This document shows positions 36,864-46,281 of a stretch of DNA of 64,000 nt, piece by piece. The notes under the pieces were generated by a model, which was given only the letters and a program-made list of their open reading frames with translations, had not been told where the DNA came from and ran no database searches. Both the position numbers and the translations under genes were made by a program. The DNA is taken from contig JAPPIK010000001.1 in NCBI GenBank assembly GCA_028820655.1, positions 62,001-126,000 on the forward strand, in the 5' to 3' direction. Each line of letters opens with the position of its first letter. The stretch's first letter is position 1. The DNA is from Candidatus Poribacteria bacterium. GTDB taxonomy: Bacteria; Poribacteria; WGA-4E; JAJDTR01.

Positions 36864-38285
36864 TCAAACGATAGCTGGCTCTAGACACAGACGCACTTTC
36901 TGTGTTCGCTGTTCCCATTCATCACATGTGGCGTGAGTACGTTGAACCGATGCGCCAATATACTTCGTCGGATCTCGAAGCGCCTCGCGCTGTTCTACCG
37001 TCAATTGTTCCAGAAACGGTTTGAGTGCTTCGTCCGACCATAGGAGGTCCGTCAAGCATTCTCCCGTCTCATGCACCCGAGCGACCAGTTTCCGAGTGTG
37101 ATCATACGCATCCGGAAACCCGTAATACGCCATCAACAGATAGATCGGTTCCGCGATAGTGTCTCCGGCGCTCATTTCGAGATTGCGCCGCATATTGTCG
37201 GTCTTGGCCTCCAACTCGTCGAGTGCGCGATTTAAACGGAAAATGGAGTAGTCAAAAGCGGTGAGAAGTTCCGTGAGAAAACGACTCGACGCCGAGTTTG
37301 TTAAATCGCGTTGATGTTCCAAAATGCTATCCATGAACACGGTCATCATGCGTGGTACATACGCCTTCCAAAGACTCTTCACATTTTCAAATTCTTCCGG
37401 ATTTATTTTGTGCGGCATGGTAGAAGATCCGACGAGCTTCGGGTTATATGTTCTTCCGACCTCCGCGATTTCGGTGCGGTAGAGATGCCGCATATCGTCT
37501 GCGAAATTGGCAAGAATCGTGTAAGTCGAAGTGATGGCGTAAGCCAAATCCGAGATTGACTCCGGTTCGACGCACTGCGTCGACGTATGCGTGTCCGACG
37601 CCTTTAAGCCGAGTTGGGCAAGCAGATCTGCCTCAATCTCTTCAGGGCGCTCTGTGATCAATGACAGACCATTGAATGCTCCGACCGCGCCGGAAAATTG
37701 ACCACGGAGATTCCGGCTAGCCTGATCGATTAACTCAATCCTGTTTCCGATTCGACTGACGTAGAGTGCGAGCGCGTATCCGAAGGTTATCGGTTCCGCA
37801 TGCTGTCCGTGTGTACGCCCGATCTGTACGGCTTCCGCGTGTTCGCGCGCCAGTTGGATTAGTTGCGTTTGGAGCCCGATTAGGTCGGGCAGAATAACCT
37901 GCTGAGTCAGGTCCTTAAACCGCAATGCGGTTGCGGTATCAAGAACATCGGCTGAAGTCGCAAAAAGGTGTACACAAGGGCGTGCTTCAGGGCTCATCCG
38001 CCGTCGCATGACGTTGACGAGGGAGCGAATATTGTGTCGAATTCGAGTTTGCTCTTCGTAGACTTCATCGGCAGTTATTTCCTTTGCCGCATTGTCAGCT
38101 TCATCCGCAAATTTTTGCGCGCAGATGCCGTGGTTGGCAAGAGTGCGCACCAACGCCGCTTCAACTTTCGCTTGATATTTCACGTAGCCGGACTCAGAGA
38201 CGTACGGCATTAGCCGCCGCATGAACTCGTCGTTACCACCGTAATACCTGAAATCAAGTGGACTAACTGCTTCAAAGAGTTCCAT
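36864..38285 (-). CDS. purB: Adenylosuccinate lyase PurB
   Basis: A 473-residue fumarase/aspartase-superfamily lyase for two steps of purine synthesis (SAICAR to AICAR, adenylosuccinate to AMP). The start ATG at 38285 (MELFEAVSPLDFRYYGG) was preferred over an upstream frame because the family begins here. The catalytic region GRTHGQHAEP and the signature SSTMPHKINPEEFE are intact. purH lies 0.8 kb away on the opposite strand, so purine genes are grouped loosely. Confidence 0.95.
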   Translation of the reverse strand: MELFEAVSPLDFRYYGGNDEFMRRLMPYVSESGYVKYQAKVEAALVRTLANHGICAQKFADEADNAAKEITADEVYEEQTRIRHNIRSLVNVMRRRMSPEARPCVHLFATSADVLDTATALRFKDLTQQVILPDLIGLQTQLIQLAREHAEAVQIGRTHGQHAEPITFGYALALYVSRIGNRIELIDQASRNLRGQFSGAVGAFNGLSLITERPEEIEADLLAQLGLKASDTHTSTQCVEPESISDLAYAITSTYTILANFADDMRHLYRTEIAEVGRTYNPKLVGSSTMPHKINPEEFENVKSLWKAYVPRMMTVFMDSILEHQRDLTNSASSRFLTELLTAFDYSIFRLNRALDELEAKTDNMRRNLEMSAGDTIAEPIYLLMAYYGFPDAYDHTRKLVARVHETGECLTDLLWSDEALKPFLEQLTVEQREALRDPTKYIGASVQRTHATCDEWEQRTQKVRLCLEPAIV

Positions 38286-38599
38286 AGTAAGGTCTGTTTT
38301 GACACGTATAGGATTCAACTTGAGGACAACTGATTGCCGTTGGTAATTATAGATGATTGCGCAAAAAAAAACAACTGAAACACCGTAATCGGGCTGGTTG
38401 TCCGATCTACATGACTGAGTGGGATGCCGTGCGACGTTCGCTAGAGCAAATGGACTGCTCGTCTCCAACCAACCATACCCGATGGCGGAAAAAACGCTTG
38501 CTTAAGGCACGATTCTCTTGTAGAATTAATGCGTGCAAATCAGGCAAACCTTCCATCAATACTTACAACACAGTAGTCAAATTTCATAGGAGGATGAAC

Positions 38600-38827
38600 A
38601 TGAAACTGAGCATCGAGTATTGTGCCATGTGAAACTATCTACCCAATGCCGTCAGTATGGCGAGCGACTTGCTGAATAAATATGGTACGGATGTGAAAGG
38701 ACTTACCCTCGTTCCGGGTGGTGGCGGATGCTTTGAAGTGAAGTTCAACGGGAACTTAATCTATTCGAAACTAGACACCGGTGAATTCCCCACGGCGGAG
38801 CAGATTACTTCCGCGATTGAAGCCTAA
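38600..38827 (+). CDS. SelW-like (Rdx family) selenoprotein with in-frame TGA
   Basis: A 75-residue ORF invisible to standard calling because codon 11 (38630-38632) is TGA. Translated with selenocysteine it gives a C8-x-x-U11 redox motif right after the first strand, a helix (NAVSMASDLLNKYG), then LTLVPGGGGCFEVKFNGNLIYSK, TGEFPTAEQ and a final helix. This is the full Rdx/SelW thioredoxin-like fold pattern at normal length. ATG 38600 has AGGAGG 6 bases upstream. A stem-loop follows the TGA. SelW-type proteins are thiol redox proteins of the cytoplasm. selA/B/C/D are not in the window; if the cell lacks them, this would be a broken Cys homologue. Confidence 0.85.
38647..38662 (+). promoter_or_regulatory. 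Candidate bacterial SECIS stem-loop
   Basis: Fourteen bases after the TGA, TGCC (38647-38650) pairs with GGCG (38659-38662) across the loop GTCAGTAT, which starts with G. The stem can extend inward by G-U and U-A pairs. Placement and the early G fit the loose bacterial SECIS rules for SelB recruitment. The stem is short, so this is tentative. Confidence 0.45.
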
Positions 38828-39058
38828 TTGCCGCAAATCGAGTCACACCGTGCTCCTGGGATGAGAAGCGTACGTAGCACTGTCCCTTCAGTTATTTTAC
38901 TCATGGATTAATATGGCACCAGTAGGCATCTCAGGTCTTTCTGTGGATATGAAGGGATATGATTTGTTAATACGAAGTTCGATGTGACAGACGATCCGTT
39001 GCAAAGGCGTTATGCGCTTTCTGTTTCACCAAGTGCCACCAACGACACAACGACAATC

Positions 39059-40624
39059 ATGAAAATAATTCGACGCGCGTTGATTAGCGTCTTTGATAAA
39101 TCCGACCTTTTGGATCTCGTCCAAATTCTCGCTGAGAACGGGGTCGAGTTCTTATCGACCGGTCAAACCGCTAAACATCTCACACAGTCGGGGTTTCAGG
39201 TTCGCGAGGTTTCAGATTATACCGGCTTTCCCGAAATACTGGACGGGCGAGTAAAAACGCTGCACCCGAGAATCTACGGTGGTCTTCTCGCGGTTCTAGA
39301 CAATCCGGAACACGTAGAGCAAACCGCTGCGCATGGCATTGAATCGATAGATCTTATCGTATCCAACCTGTATCCGTTTGAAGCAACGGTCCAACGCGAG
39401 GGAATTGAACTCGATGAAGCGATCGAGAATATCGACATCGGCGGACCGACGCTCATTCGGGCAGCAGCGAAGAACTATCAGGATGTTGCCGTGGTCACAA
39501 ATCCTTGTCAATATCCCGAAATTGTTGAAGAGCTTCGAGAGAACGGCGGCGGATTGTCGTCAGAGACACGATTTCGGTTGGCGAAAGCCGCCTTCAATCA
39601 TATTACTCGTTACGACGCAGCAATTTCACACTATCTTTCTACTCTGGATGATCCCGGTCCTGAATTCCCTGAAGTTTTGAATCTTCGATACGAAAAGGCG
39701 CAAGAACTCCGCTACGGCGAAAACCCGCACCAGAAAGCCGCGTTTTATCGTACCGTCACCTCCCCCGAGCCGTGTGCGGCATGGGCTGAACAGCTAAGCG
39801 GTCAACCGCTGTCATTTAACAACATCCTGGATTTGGAAGCCGCCTTGGAGATTGTCAAGGATTTTGAAGATCCAACTTGTGCGATTATTAAACACAATAA
39901 TCCGTGTGGATTGGCTACTGGAAAGGACTTGGTTCAAGCCTTCAACGAAGCGCTCGAATGCGACCGAACTTCCGCATTCGGCAGTATAATCGGCGTGAAT
40001 CGGAAAGTTACCATCCAGACAGCGAACACTATTCGAGAAGCCGCCAAGGCAGGGATAAAGGTTGAGGCAATTATCGCTCCAAGCTATACCGAACAGGCGT
40101 TAAAAGCTCTGTCGCGTGTGAAACAACGGCGCATCTTGGCAACCGGGAAGTTATCACTACGGCCAACGGTTAAACAGATACGCAATGTGACTGGTGGGCT
40201 GCTTCTTCAAGACCGGGATCGGCGCGAGATTGGTCCGGATGAATTGCAAGTTGTCAGCAAACGTGAACCTACAGATGCAGAACTCGAATCACTCCTTTTT
40301 GGTTGGAGAGCTTGCAAACACGTCAAATCAAATTGTATTTTGCTGGCGCAGGGCACCAAGACCGTCGGGATAGGCGCCGGTCAGATGAGCCGGGTCGACT
40401 CGTGTATTATTGCCGCACGCAAGGCTGGAGAAAGAGCGAACGGATCGGTGCTTGCATCGGATGCGTATTTCCCGTTTCCCGATGGAATCGAGATTGCCGG
40501 CGGGGCGGGAGTGAGCGCGATTATTCAACCGGGCGGGTCGGTGAACGATCAAACGGTGATTGACGCCGCGAACCGCTATAATATGGCTATGGTCTTGACC
40601 GGCGTGCGGCATTTTCTTCACTAG
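39059..40624 (+). CDS. purH: Bifunctional AICAR transformylase / IMP cyclohydrolase PurH
   Basis: A 521-residue enzyme for the last two steps of IMP synthesis. The start ATG at 39059 (MKIIRRALISVFDK) matches the family; the frame extends to a GTG at 38984 with no ribosome site. The N-terminal cyclohydrolase domain shows GFPEILDGRVKTLHPRI, and the C-terminal transformylase domain shows IIKHNNPCGLA, with the catalytic Lys-His, and SDAYFPFPDGIE. Normal length and intact. Confidence 0.96.
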   Translation: MKIIRRALISVFDKSDLLDLVQILAENGVEFLSTGQTAKHLTQSGFQVREVSDYTGFPEILDGRVKTLHPRIYGGLLAVLDNPEHVEQTAAHGIESIDLIVSNLYPFEATVQREGIELDEAIENIDIGGPTLIRAAAKNYQDVAVVTNPCQYPEIVEELRENGGGLSSETRFRLAKAAFNHITRYDAAISHYLSTLDDPGPEFPEVLNLRYEKAQELRYGENPHQKAAFYRTVTSPEPCAAWAEQLSGQPLSFNNILDLEAALEIVKDFEDPTCAIIKHNNPCGLATGKDLVQAFNEALECDRTSAFGSIIGVNRKVTIQTANTIREAAKAGIKVEAIIAPSYTEQALKALSRVKQRRILATGKLSLRPTVKQIRNVTGGLLLQDRDRREIGPDELQVVSKREPTDAELESLLFGWRACKHVKSNCILLAQGTKTVGIGAGQMSRVDSCIIAARKAGERANGSVLASDAYFPFPDGIEIAGGAGVSAIIQPGGSVNDQTVIDAANRYNMAMVLTGVRHFLH

Positions 40625-42073: not shown

Positions 42074-44116
42074 ATGCAGAAATTGATGAATTGGAAATCC
42101 TTGTTCGTACTCTTGCTTGTCCTGCATCTTCTGCCGCTGTGGATTTTCACGTACTTCCCTTCACAAGACGGCCCCAGCCACATCTACAATGCCCTCACTC
42201 TGAAGGACTATCATAAGCACGAGAATTATATGATGCGAGATGTTTGGAAGTTGAACATCACCGTTTTCCCAAACTGGTTATCGCATCTCATGCTTGCCGC
42301 ATTCCTCTTCGTCTTCCCGCCCATCGTCGCCGAGAAAGTCTTTCTCACCTTGGCAGTCGGGCTTGTTCCAATCTCGTTCTTCTATCTGGTAGACGCGGTT
42401 CATAAACGCGGTTTCGTGTTCGCTTGGCTCGGGTTCCTTTTTTCTTACAACTATCTCCTCTTCATGGGATTCTACAACTTTGCCATAAGCACGTCGCTGT
42501 TCTTTTTCAGTTTCGGTTTCTGGTGGCGGCACAAAGATGACATCCGCGTGAATCACCTCATTGTTCTGTATATTCTCATCCTGCTCACCTATCTTTCGCA
42601 CATTTCTTCGTACGGTTTGCTGCTGTTGAGTTTGTCGACTGCGGCAGTCTGCCTATGGGGATCCGCCGCCGCGGCAGCCGCATGGCGTGTTCGAAAGGAG
42701 CATATCGCGCACATCGCAGCGCAATTTTGGAAGGGAATCAAACCCTTGGTACGGTTTGGACTCTATATGATTCCGGTGTATTTTGTCCTAATGGACTATT
42801 ATCTTAAAAGCCTACGCGACTTTCAAGAAGGCCACCATCGAGGCATGGAATGGGTTGAAGATTACTTTTGGGGAGTAAAGTCAATCGTCTATTTCACCGA
42901 TTGGCACATCAGAGTTCACCATGTATTGCTCGCGATCTTGGGTATATCCATTTTGGTTTCATTGGCGTACCGAATCGCCCGAAAACAGTGGGTAAGGAAA
43001 AGCGACGTGTTTCTGGTGATAGCCGTCGTATTTACAATTATGTTCATTAGGGCGCCGTGGCGGTTCGGTACGGGGGCCTGGATTAACGACCGGATCCATT
43101 TCTACATCATTTTGATGCTTGCTCCGTGGTTTGTCGTTGACATGTGGAGGTGGTTGCGATACGGATTCGCGGCGGTGTTGATCGCTATCTGTCTGTTGCA
43201 TCTCGGGCGCACCACCTATGACATGGCTCGGCTCAGTCCCGAGCTCGCCGAACAGGCGTCCGGTACGCATTTCATTAAACCGCACACTTCATACGCAATG
43301 CGTGTCCGTGACTGGCATAAGTCGGACGCGCTTGGAAGCGTGAAATACGTCGCACCATTTGGCCATTCCGTGGCATACTACGGGCTTTACGCCGACGATG
43401 TGGCAAACCTGGGCAATTACGAAGCAAAACATAACTATTTTCCAATCAACCGTCTGCACCAACCTACCTACGGTGGGCGTGAGGATTACGTGGTCGCATG
43501 GGCTTACCCTCCGGAAGAGAAATTCGACGACCTGAAGACGGATTTTGATCTTATCCACGAGACCAAAAACCTCAAGCTTTTTCAACGGAAGCTGGCTGAA
43601 GCTCCCGATTTGTCGATCTGGAGTAAAACCGCCGATGGTCGCCGAGTGATTCGTTTCGACATGCAGCCGCCCGAAGGGCAAACGGCGGAAGGCTATCACG
43701 CTGTCCACAGGGACCTTGGCTACGTGAGTGGAAGATTCGGCTGGAAGACTCATTCGCCGCACAGTCAACACGTGGGGAATGCCGAACTTCCTGCGGACTA
43801 CCGAGACTCCGTCTGGGATAGACACGATGCGGCGTTCAAACTCGACCTTCCGAACGGGAGATATCGCGTGACGAACCTATTCTGTTCGGCGGAAGACAAC
43901 GGGCATCAGGTGAATCTGATTGCGAATGGAAAACGGGTGATTAAGAAACTGGTTATCCCGTCCGGGAACGAAACTGTTGAACACGTCTACGAGATTGAAG
44001 TGACCGACGAGTATCTCACACAGGTTATCTTTAGACCTAACGAACGTGTGCCAAAAGCGGGAATGCACAACCACTGGGTCTGGAGCGGATTCACCGTAGA
44101 GCAGATAATCCAGTGA
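42074..44116 (+). CDS. 680-residue membrane protein with C-terminal CBM-like module, tandem copy 1
   Basis: First of three tandem paralogues of identical length. Residues 1-~395 hold about ten TM helices with a conserved first loop, TYFPSQDGPSHIYNA (~residues 26-40), like the acidic loop of GT-C glycosyltransferases. Residues ~510-675 form a soluble beta-rich module (RFDMQPP...GYHAVHRDLGY...FGWKT...FKLDLPNGRYRVT...HQVNLIANGK) that resembles the carbohydrate-binding N-terminal module of rhamnogalacturonan-acetylesterase-like and malectin-like proteins. This suggests a membrane enzyme handling surface glycan. No named family recognised. Confidence 0.7.
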   Translation: MQKLMNWKSLFVLLLVLHLLPLWIFTYFPSQDGPSHIYNALTLKDYHKHENYMMRDVWKLNITVFPNWLSHLMLAAFLFVFPPIVAEKVFLTLAVGLVPISFFYLVDAVHKRGFVFAWLGFLFSYNYLLFMGFYNFAISTSLFFFSFGFWWRHKDDIRVNHLIVLYILILLTYLSHISSYGLLLLSLSTAAVCLWGSAAAAAAWRVRKEHIAHIAAQFWKGIKPLVRFGLYMIPVYFVLMDYYLKSLRDFQEGHHRGMEWVEDYFWGVKSIVYFTDWHIRVHHVLLAILGISILVSLAYRIARKQWVRKSDVFLVIAVVFTIMFIRAPWRFGTGAWINDRIHFYIILMLAPWFVVDMWRWLRYGFAAVLIAICLLHLGRTTYDMARLSPELAEQASGTHFIKPHTSYAMRVRDWHKSDALGSVKYVAPFGHSVAYYGLYADDVANLGNYEAKHNYFPINRLHQPTYGGREDYVVAWAYPPEEKFDDLKTDFDLIHETKNLKLFQRKLAEAPDLSIWSKTADGRRVIRFDMQPPEGQTAEGYHAVHRDLGYVSGRFGWKTHSPHSQHVGNAELPADYRDSVWDRHDAAFKLDLPNGRYRVTNLFCSAEDNGHQVNLIANGKRVIKKLVIPSGNETVEHVYEIEVTDEYLTQVIFRPNERVPKAGMHNHWVWSGFTVEQIIQ

Positions 44117-44238: not shown

Positions 44239-46281
44239 ATGCCGAAATTGATGAACTGGAAATCCCTTTTCCTGTTCTTGCTCATCTTACATCTGCTGCC
44301 GTTGTGGATCTTCACGTATTTCCCTTCCCAAGACGGACCTAGCCACATCTACAACGCGCTCGTATTAAAGGATTATCACAAGCACGAGAACTATCTGATT
44401 CGTGATGTTTGGAAGCTGAACATTACTATCTTTCCGAATTGGCTGGCGCATCTTGTGCTTGCGGCATTGCTCTATGTCTTTCCGCCCGTGATTGCCGACA
44501 AAGTCTTTCTTACCGTGGCAGTTGGTCTATTTCCAATCTCGTTATTCTACCTCCTTGACTCGGTTCATAAACGCGGTTTCGTGTTTGGTTGGCTCGGTTT
44601 TATTTTCACCTACAACTATCTTCTGTTCATGGGTTTTTACAGCTTTGTCCTAAGCACTTCGTTGTTCTTCTTCAGCTTCGGATACTGGTGGCGGCACAAA
44701 GACGACATCAAGGTAAATCATCTCATCGTACTGTACATTCTGGTACTTCTCACCTACCTTTCGCACATAGCCTCTTACGGTCTGCTTGTGTTAGCTCTGT
44801 CATTGGCGGCGGGTTGCCACTGGGGATGCGCTGCTATCGCCAGCGCTTGGTCTTCCCGAAAGGCGGGAGTGGCGCGAATCACGGCGCAAATTTGGGCGAG
44901 GCTGCAACCAGTAGTGTGGTTCGGTCTGTACATGATTCCGATTTATTTTGTCTTGGCGGATTATTACCTTGATAGCCTTAGGGACGGTCAAGGTGGCCGC
45001 TATAGAGGCATAGAGTGGATTAAAGACTACTTTTGGGGAGTGAAGTCAATCGTCTATTTTACCGATTGGCACATTAGGGTAAATCATGTATTGCTCGTGA
45101 TACTCGGACTTGCAGTTGTCGCTACAATAGTGTATCGGATAATTCGAAGGCAATGGATTCGACATAGCGATGTGTTTTTGGTCATCTCGGCAGTCTTTAC
45201 AATCATGTTCATCAAGGCGCCGTGGGGGTTCGGTCCGGGGGGCTGGATTAACGACCGAATTCATTTCTACATACTACCGATGCTCGCTCCGTGGTTGGTC
45301 GTCGACATGTGTAAATGGCTGCGCCACGGATTCTCGGCAGCGTTAATTGTCATCTGCCTTCTTCATCTGGGGCGTACCACTTATGAAATAGGCCGGATTA
45401 GCCCTGAAGTCGCGGAACTCGTGTCAGGAGGACATCTTATCGAACCGCATACGACATACAGCATGCGGGGGCCGCACTGGCACAAATCCGACGCATTTGG
45501 GGATATCAAGTACGTGACACCGTTTTATCATGGGACAGCGCTCTACGGAGTTTACGCCAGCGATGTGTGCCATTTGGCAAATTACGAAGCCAATCACGAC
45601 TATTTTCCGATCAACCGGTTGCACCAATCTGCCTACGGAGGGCGCGAGGATTACGTTGTCGCATGGTCTTACCCGCCGGAAGAGAAATTTGACGATCTAA
45701 AGACAGATTTCGACCTCATCCACGAGACCAAGAACCTTAGGCTATTTCAGCGGAAGCAGGCTGAATCTCCCGATCTGTCGATCTGGAGTGAAACCGTCGA
45801 TGGCCGCCGAGTTATTCGCTTTGACATGCAGCCGCCCGATGCACAAACCGCGGAAGGCTATCACGCCGTCCACAAGGATCTTGGCTACGTGAGCGGAAGA
45901 TTTGGCTGGAAAACTCAGTCGCCTAATAATCACCACGGGGGCAATGCCGAACTTCCTCCGGACTACCGAGATTGCGTCTGGGATAGGCACGATGCGGCGT
46001 TCAAACTCGACCTTCCGAACGGAAACTATCGCGTAACGAACATCTTCTGCTCGGCGGAAGATAAGGGGCATCAGGTGAATCTTATTGCGAACGGAAAACG
46101 GATGATTGAGAAACTGGCTATACCGGCCGGGAATGAAACCGTCCAACATAACTACGAGATTGAGGTGACCGACGAGCATCTCACACAGGTTATCTTCAGA
46201 CCGAACGAGCGTGTCCCAAAAGCGGGGATGCACAACCACTGGGTCTGGAACGGATTCACGGTGGAACAAGTCTCCAAGTGA
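44239..46281 (+). CDS. 680-residue membrane protein with C-terminal CBM-like module, tandem copy 2
   Basis: Same length and layout as copy 1; the first 60 residues differ at only 7 positions. The TM region is more diverged (e.g. SFVLSTSLFFFSFGYW) while the C-terminal module is nearly the same. It starts with ATG 122 bases after copy 1, and the spacers are not identical, so the duplication is not brand new. The acidic first loop and the beta module are both intact, so this copy looks functional. Confidence 0.7.
   Translation: MPKLMNWKSLFLFLLILHLLPLWIFTYFPSQDGPSHIYNALVLKDYHKHENYLIRDVWKLNITIFPNWLAHLVLAALLYVFPPVIADKVFLTVAVGLFPISLFYLLDSVHKRGFVFGWLGFIFTYNYLLFMGFYSFVLSTSLFFFSFGYWWRHKDDIKVNHLIVLYILVLLTYLSHIASYGLLVLALSLAAGCHWGCAAIASAWSSRKAGVARITAQIWARLQPVVWFGLYMIPIYFVLADYYLDSLRDGQGGRYRGIEWIKDYFWGVKSIVYFTDWHIRVNHVLLVILGLAVVATIVYRIIRRQWIRHSDVFLVISAVFTIMFIKAPWGFGPGGWINDRIHFYILPMLAPWLVVDMCKWLRHGFSAALIVICLLHLGRTTYEIGRISPEVAELVSGGHLIEPHTTYSMRGPHWHKSDAFGDIKYVTPFYHGTALYGVYASDVCHLANYEANHDYFPINRLHQSAYGGREDYVVAWSYPPEEKFDDLKTDFDLIHETKNLRLFQRKQAESPDLSIWSETVDGRRVIRFDMQPPDAQTAEGYHAVHKDLGYVSGRFGWKTQSPNNHHGGNAELPPDYRDCVWDRHDAAFKLDLPNGNYRVTNIFCSAEDKGHQVNLIANGKRMIEKLAIPAGNETVQHNYEIEVTDEHLTQVIFRPNERVPKAGMHNHWVWNGFTVEQVSK

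Follow-up and report, generated by a model that had tools for sequence, protein, structure and literature searches.

The window, a stretch of 64,000 nucleotides from a genome of the Poribacteria, a candidate phylum familiar from symbionts of sponges, carries a short gene of the selW type between purB and purH (Table 1). Its reading frame runs from an ATG at 38600 to a TAA stop at 38825-38827 and is interrupted solely by a TGA at codon 11. With this codon read as U, the product is MKLSIEYCAMUNYLPNAVSMASDLLNKYGTDVKGLTLVPGGGGCFEVKFNGNLIYSKLDTGEFPTAEQITSAIEA, in which the TGA occupies the second redox position of the motif C8-A-M-U11. The arrangement described in the first-pass annotation, an AGGAGG followed by an ATG and a TGA as codon 11 at the second position of a CxxC/CxxU motif, was thus confirmed by direct reading. 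Comparable purine-rich, Shine-Dalgarno-like sites precede the start in most relatives. Across the genome (5.88 Mb at 95% completeness) this is the single Rdx gene, and it has exactly one internal TGA.

Table 1. Features at the selW-like locus, in window coordinates
Feature	Position	Strand	Basis and remarks
purB adenylosuccinate lyase, upstream divergent neighbour	36864..38468	-	Pfam Lyase_1, ASL_C; coordinates of the listed ORF, whose true start is probably more internal
Shine-Dalgarno AGGAGG	38588..38593	+	6 nt 5' of ATG; direct reading
selW-like (Rdx) selenoprotein gene, 75 aa	38600..38827	+	Pfam PF10262, TIGR02174, AF2, Foldseek
In-frame TGA, codon 11, Sec-11 of the C8-x-x-U11 redox motif	38630..38632	+	
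Bacterial SECIS hairpin within the coding sequence	38649..38663	+	covariation, frozen codons
purH AICARFT/IMPCHase, downstream neighbour	38984..40624	+	Pfam PF01808; ORF as listed

Among the loci examined, the order purB-selW-purH was found only in a genome of the same genus, the other loci having short flanks, so the context is uninformative on the function of SelW. Further along the window, two consecutive ORFs of 680 codons (42074-44116 and 44239-46281) were noted. Pfam gave no match for either of them, and the first has many hydrophobic stretches. Apart from selW, a search of the window outside the long ORFs for frames interrupted by TGA yielded a few candidates, none showing an obvious motif.

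The identity as a SelW/Rdx protein, proposed earlier from the letters of the sequence, is supported by two family models, both of which match nearly full length and span the TGA: Pfam Rdx PF10262 (E=1.5e-20, 73.6 bits against a cut-off of 22.6) and NCBIfam TIGR02174 CXXU_selWTH (8.3e-19, 67.7 bits against a cut-off of 34.2). Homology therefore extends over both sides of the TGA. A further NCBIfam model, NF041051 SelTWH_Campy, also matched over nearly the full length with 82.3 bits, just under its equivalog cut-off of 88 bits, which makes the Poribacteria SelW a relative of that subgroup and not a member.

An AlphaFold2 model built with 28 homologues, in which the columns of C8-A-M-U11 are invariant, reached a mean pLDDT of 91.7 and has the order strand, helix, three strands, helix. 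Strand E2-8 of the model precedes the CxxU motif, so that C8-x-x-U11 lies at the end of strand 1. The top Foldseek matches were all Rdx proteins. In the ranking of PDB structures, bacterial Rdx and SelW-related chains came first, among them 2ojl (TM 0.92), 2fa8, 3dex, 2obk and 2p0g, which share the thioredoxin-like fold at a TM of about 0.90-0.92 and an identity to the Poribacteria SelW of 27-34%; MIEN1 and mouse SelW followed, and then thioredoxins. Mouse SelW (2npb) has the same fold with a weaker match (TM 0.67). According to the model, the predicted product adopts the Rdx variant of the thioredoxin-like fold.

The first-pass annotation held that automatic annotation would miss the gene. 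Family models for it exist at NCBI, but standard gene finders may easily overlook it: with UGA taken as a stop, a standard-code ORF caller reduces selW to an ORF of 56 aa that starts at the ATG at 38657. This short ORF is what the standard code would produce, and it could in principle be the real gene, with the part upstream being noncoding. It would, however, be left without strand 1 and the redox motif, while the structure model needs strand E2-8, and the N-terminal residues are kept in relatives that have a Shine-Dalgarno site at the upstream ATG. A gene starting at 38657 is consequently regarded as extremely improbable.

The closest named record is a Candidatus Poribacteria MAG (JAJDTR010000013.1), with 88% identity; judged by its coordinates, it is the copy in the genome of the same genus. 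A SelW match was found in 95 of 194 relatives and outgroups; within the order the gene is present in 70 of 73 genomes, each time with exactly one TGA. The first-pass annotation had stated that this site is Cys or Sec in the Rdx family and had left the state in related bins to an alignment of homologues. Codon 11 is TGA in 88 of the 91 loci extracted and TGC or TGT in the remaining three, all of which lie outside the phylum; within the order it is always U, and no Cys form was found among the 70 genomes carrying the gene. One order member that is 95% complete (G016) contains selB and has no SelW match, which may reflect an assembly gap or gene loss. For the pair from the same genus, the part after the TGA gave a dN of 0.07 and a dS of 0.67, and such a ratio well below 1 indicates purifying selection.

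A single stop within the frame of a gene that is otherwise undamaged looks like the trace of a Cys codon, TGC or TGT, that was mutated to TGA in a pseudogene or misread as TGA in sequencing. The same codon is TGA in all 70 carriers of the order and in most of the distant matches, and its occurrence in 88 of the 91 loci rules out a sequencing error. Selection on the downstream part and the complete Sec machinery of the genome, described below, also speak against such an origin of the TGA, which is hardly credible.

The components of Sec decoding were located in the same genome. On contig 51, a tRNA-Sec gene (selC) scored 76.6 bits against a gathering threshold of 47, with the anticodon TCA given by ARAGORN, and lies immediately 3' of selB (1.2e-104). 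An ORF of 480 aa situated 5' of selB is selA-like, a call made from the ORF, its length and its position in the cluster, so that the order on this contig reads selA-selB-selC. The gene for SelD is located on contig 22 (1.9e-108) and has an in-frame TGA of its own (VECAGUASK). Among the 73 genomes of the order, 67 have selB above cut-off. No match to selU/ybbB was obtained in the genome, and there is hence no sign of the selenouridine trait. The presence of selB, selC, selD and, by ORF and position, selA disposes of the absence of selABCD and tRNA-Sec that had been named earlier as the test of the reading, and together with the conservation of UGA it supports in silico the claim that this lineage decodes UGA as selenocysteine.

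An open frame across a TGA would look identical if UGA were reassigned genome-wide or read through by a near-cognate tRNA, giving Trp, Gly or Cys and no Sec. TGA is, however, the normal stop of 19 of the 38 ORFs of at least 250 codons in the window; as it ends half of these long ORFs, the recoding is local and UGA has not been reassigned globally. The position of the UGA at the redox site of a CxxC/CxxU motif, the tRNA-Sec, selB and selD genes and a conserved SECIS-like hairpin 3' of the UGA all speak for Sec, and reassignment or readthrough is considered very unlikely.

This hairpin lies within the coding sequence. In the window it consists of five base pairs (38650-38654 pairing with 38658-38662, including one U-G) closing the loop GUA at 38655-38657; a sixth position, 38649/38663, is C/A in the window and paired in many relatives. 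The relatives have the hairpin at a fixed place, with the consensus CGYCA-GUN-UGRCG and a loop of 3 nt that starts with G and follows the UGA after 22 nt. In an alignment of 36 distinct sequences, 90.7% of the stem cells pair. Stem pair 23/31 occurs as C-G (26), U-A (6) and U-G (4), and stem pair 21/33 as C-G (17), U-A (4) and A-U (2), being unpaired in 13. Cells in which both partners had changed numbered 12, against 4.2 +/- 1.6 after shuffling (0/500), and none of the slid registers of the stem in this alignment came near the true register in pairing.

Codon usage points in the same direction. In 29 dereplicated sequences, the codons counted from the UGA were frozen as GCC for Ala+7 (22/22), AGT for Ser+8 (29/29), TTG for Leu+9 (26/26) and GCC for Ala+12 (19/19). 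Further down the same genes, GCC accounts for ~6% of the Ala codons and TTG for 13% of the Leu codons; as the aligned sequences are related, products of these frequencies cannot be read as probabilities.

The folding energy of the window hairpin is -7.4 kcal/mol for 45 nt and ranges from -7.0 to -7.4 kcal/mol depending on the ends of the stretch; the copy from the same genus folds at -7.6 kcal/mol. When the same peptide was encoded by synonymous randomisations, 42% of these folded at least as well as the 45 nt of the window. The energy is thus unexceptional, and the case for a SECIS rests on covariation and codon freezing. The published model of bacterial SECIS elements demands a stem of 4-16 bp, a loop of 3-9 nt with G within its first two positions, a spacing from the UGA of 16-37 nt and an MFE no higher than -7.5 kcal/mol (PMC13188914). 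The window hairpin lies within these limits for stem (5 bp), loop (GUA), position of the G and spacing (22 nt), with a borderline MFE marginally short of the limit. The stem-loop which the first-pass annotation had placed where a SECIS is expected therefore exists and has comparative support, whereas its folding energy as a single sequence is ordinary. At gathering thresholds, no Rfam family matched the window. A simple best-stem scan chose another, spurious hairpin for the window sequence, and the alignment was used instead to place the SECIS.

Taken together, 38600-38827 is almost certainly a genuine bacterial SelW/Rdx selenoprotein gene with UGA-11 recoded as selenocysteine. Insertion of Sec at this codon would proceed along the bacterial route: SelA and SelD would make Sec-tRNA-Sec(UCA), SelB would bind the apical loop, with its first G, of the SECIS hairpin just 3' of the UGA, and would deliver Sec-tRNA-Sec to UGA-11. 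Cys8 and Sec11, at the end of strand 1, would act in the protein as a selenenylsulfide redox couple. Judged from the Rdx family, this location of C8-x-x-U11 makes selenenylsulfide/selenolthiol exchange the likely chemistry, and SelW would have a thiol-dependent redox role as a reductase or electron carrier.

Bacterial Sec-containing proteins of the SelW type have been known since 2005 or earlier, and the kind is not new. With 48 genes, they outnumbered every other family of the Sargasso Sea set (PMC1088965), and in the GOS set they ranked with the most widespread families (PMC2398784). Those proteins share with the present one the CxxU motif, a small single domain and a UGA with a bacterial SECIS in the coding region; only the host lineage differs, here an order including the Candidatus Poribacteria MAG. 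Cys forms of SelW-like proteins are rare in Sec-decoding organisms (PMC1794560), and Sec is universal among the SelW copies of this order. A study of the sponge microbiome recorded COGs for SelA and SelB in the majority of symbiont bins, which came from various phyla (PMC5649159). No earlier report of a SelW gene in this order of Poribacteria was found in the literature searched, and the order-wide description may be new. It would mean that UGA is decoded as selenocysteine throughout the order and that SelW is kept only in its Sec form. If gene prediction takes UGA for a stop, selW as well as the Sec peroxiredoxins described below will be truncated or missed, so the antioxidant capacity of these MAGs will be underestimated. 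With roughly 70 aligned copies of the SECIS from a single gene, the order also provides material for testing SECIS rules.

Other candidate selenoprotein genes were observed in the genome. The selD gene (L022:2613-3683, G000:C22, + strand) has its TGA in the motif CAGU, followed by a stable hairpin, and is a candidate for a Sec-containing selenophosphate synthetase. In five peroxiredoxin domains, TGA stands at the peroxidatic site. Two of these domains, both AhpC/TSA, lie together in a tandem protein of 333 aa (L131:3560-4558, G000:C5:27559-28557, + strand), each with an in-frame TGA in the motif FTGGU. This gene with two TGAs is present in 63 of the 73 genomes of the order and was not found outside it at E<=1e-40 among 387 genomes. 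From its sequence, the tandem protein is a candidate two-Sec bacterial peroxiredoxin; no bacterial report of such an architecture was found in the literature searched, and it may be more novel than the selW gene. The other three domains belong to peroxiredoxin-like genes with the motifs GVFUPFC (G000:C4:329891-330259, - strand), GAWUPFC (C56:155225-155599, + strand) and GTWUPNS (C15:371079-371462, + strand). A search for deiodinases was silent in this genome and equally silent in the control genomes. It is conceivable, though rather doubtful, that SelW belongs to a selenium-dependent redox system shared across the order and serves the Sec peroxiredoxins, including the two-Sec tandem protein. 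Finally, a thioredoxin-like TPR protein (L132:1668-2567, G000:C44, + strand) has a TGA at the first redox position of its motif WUGSC.
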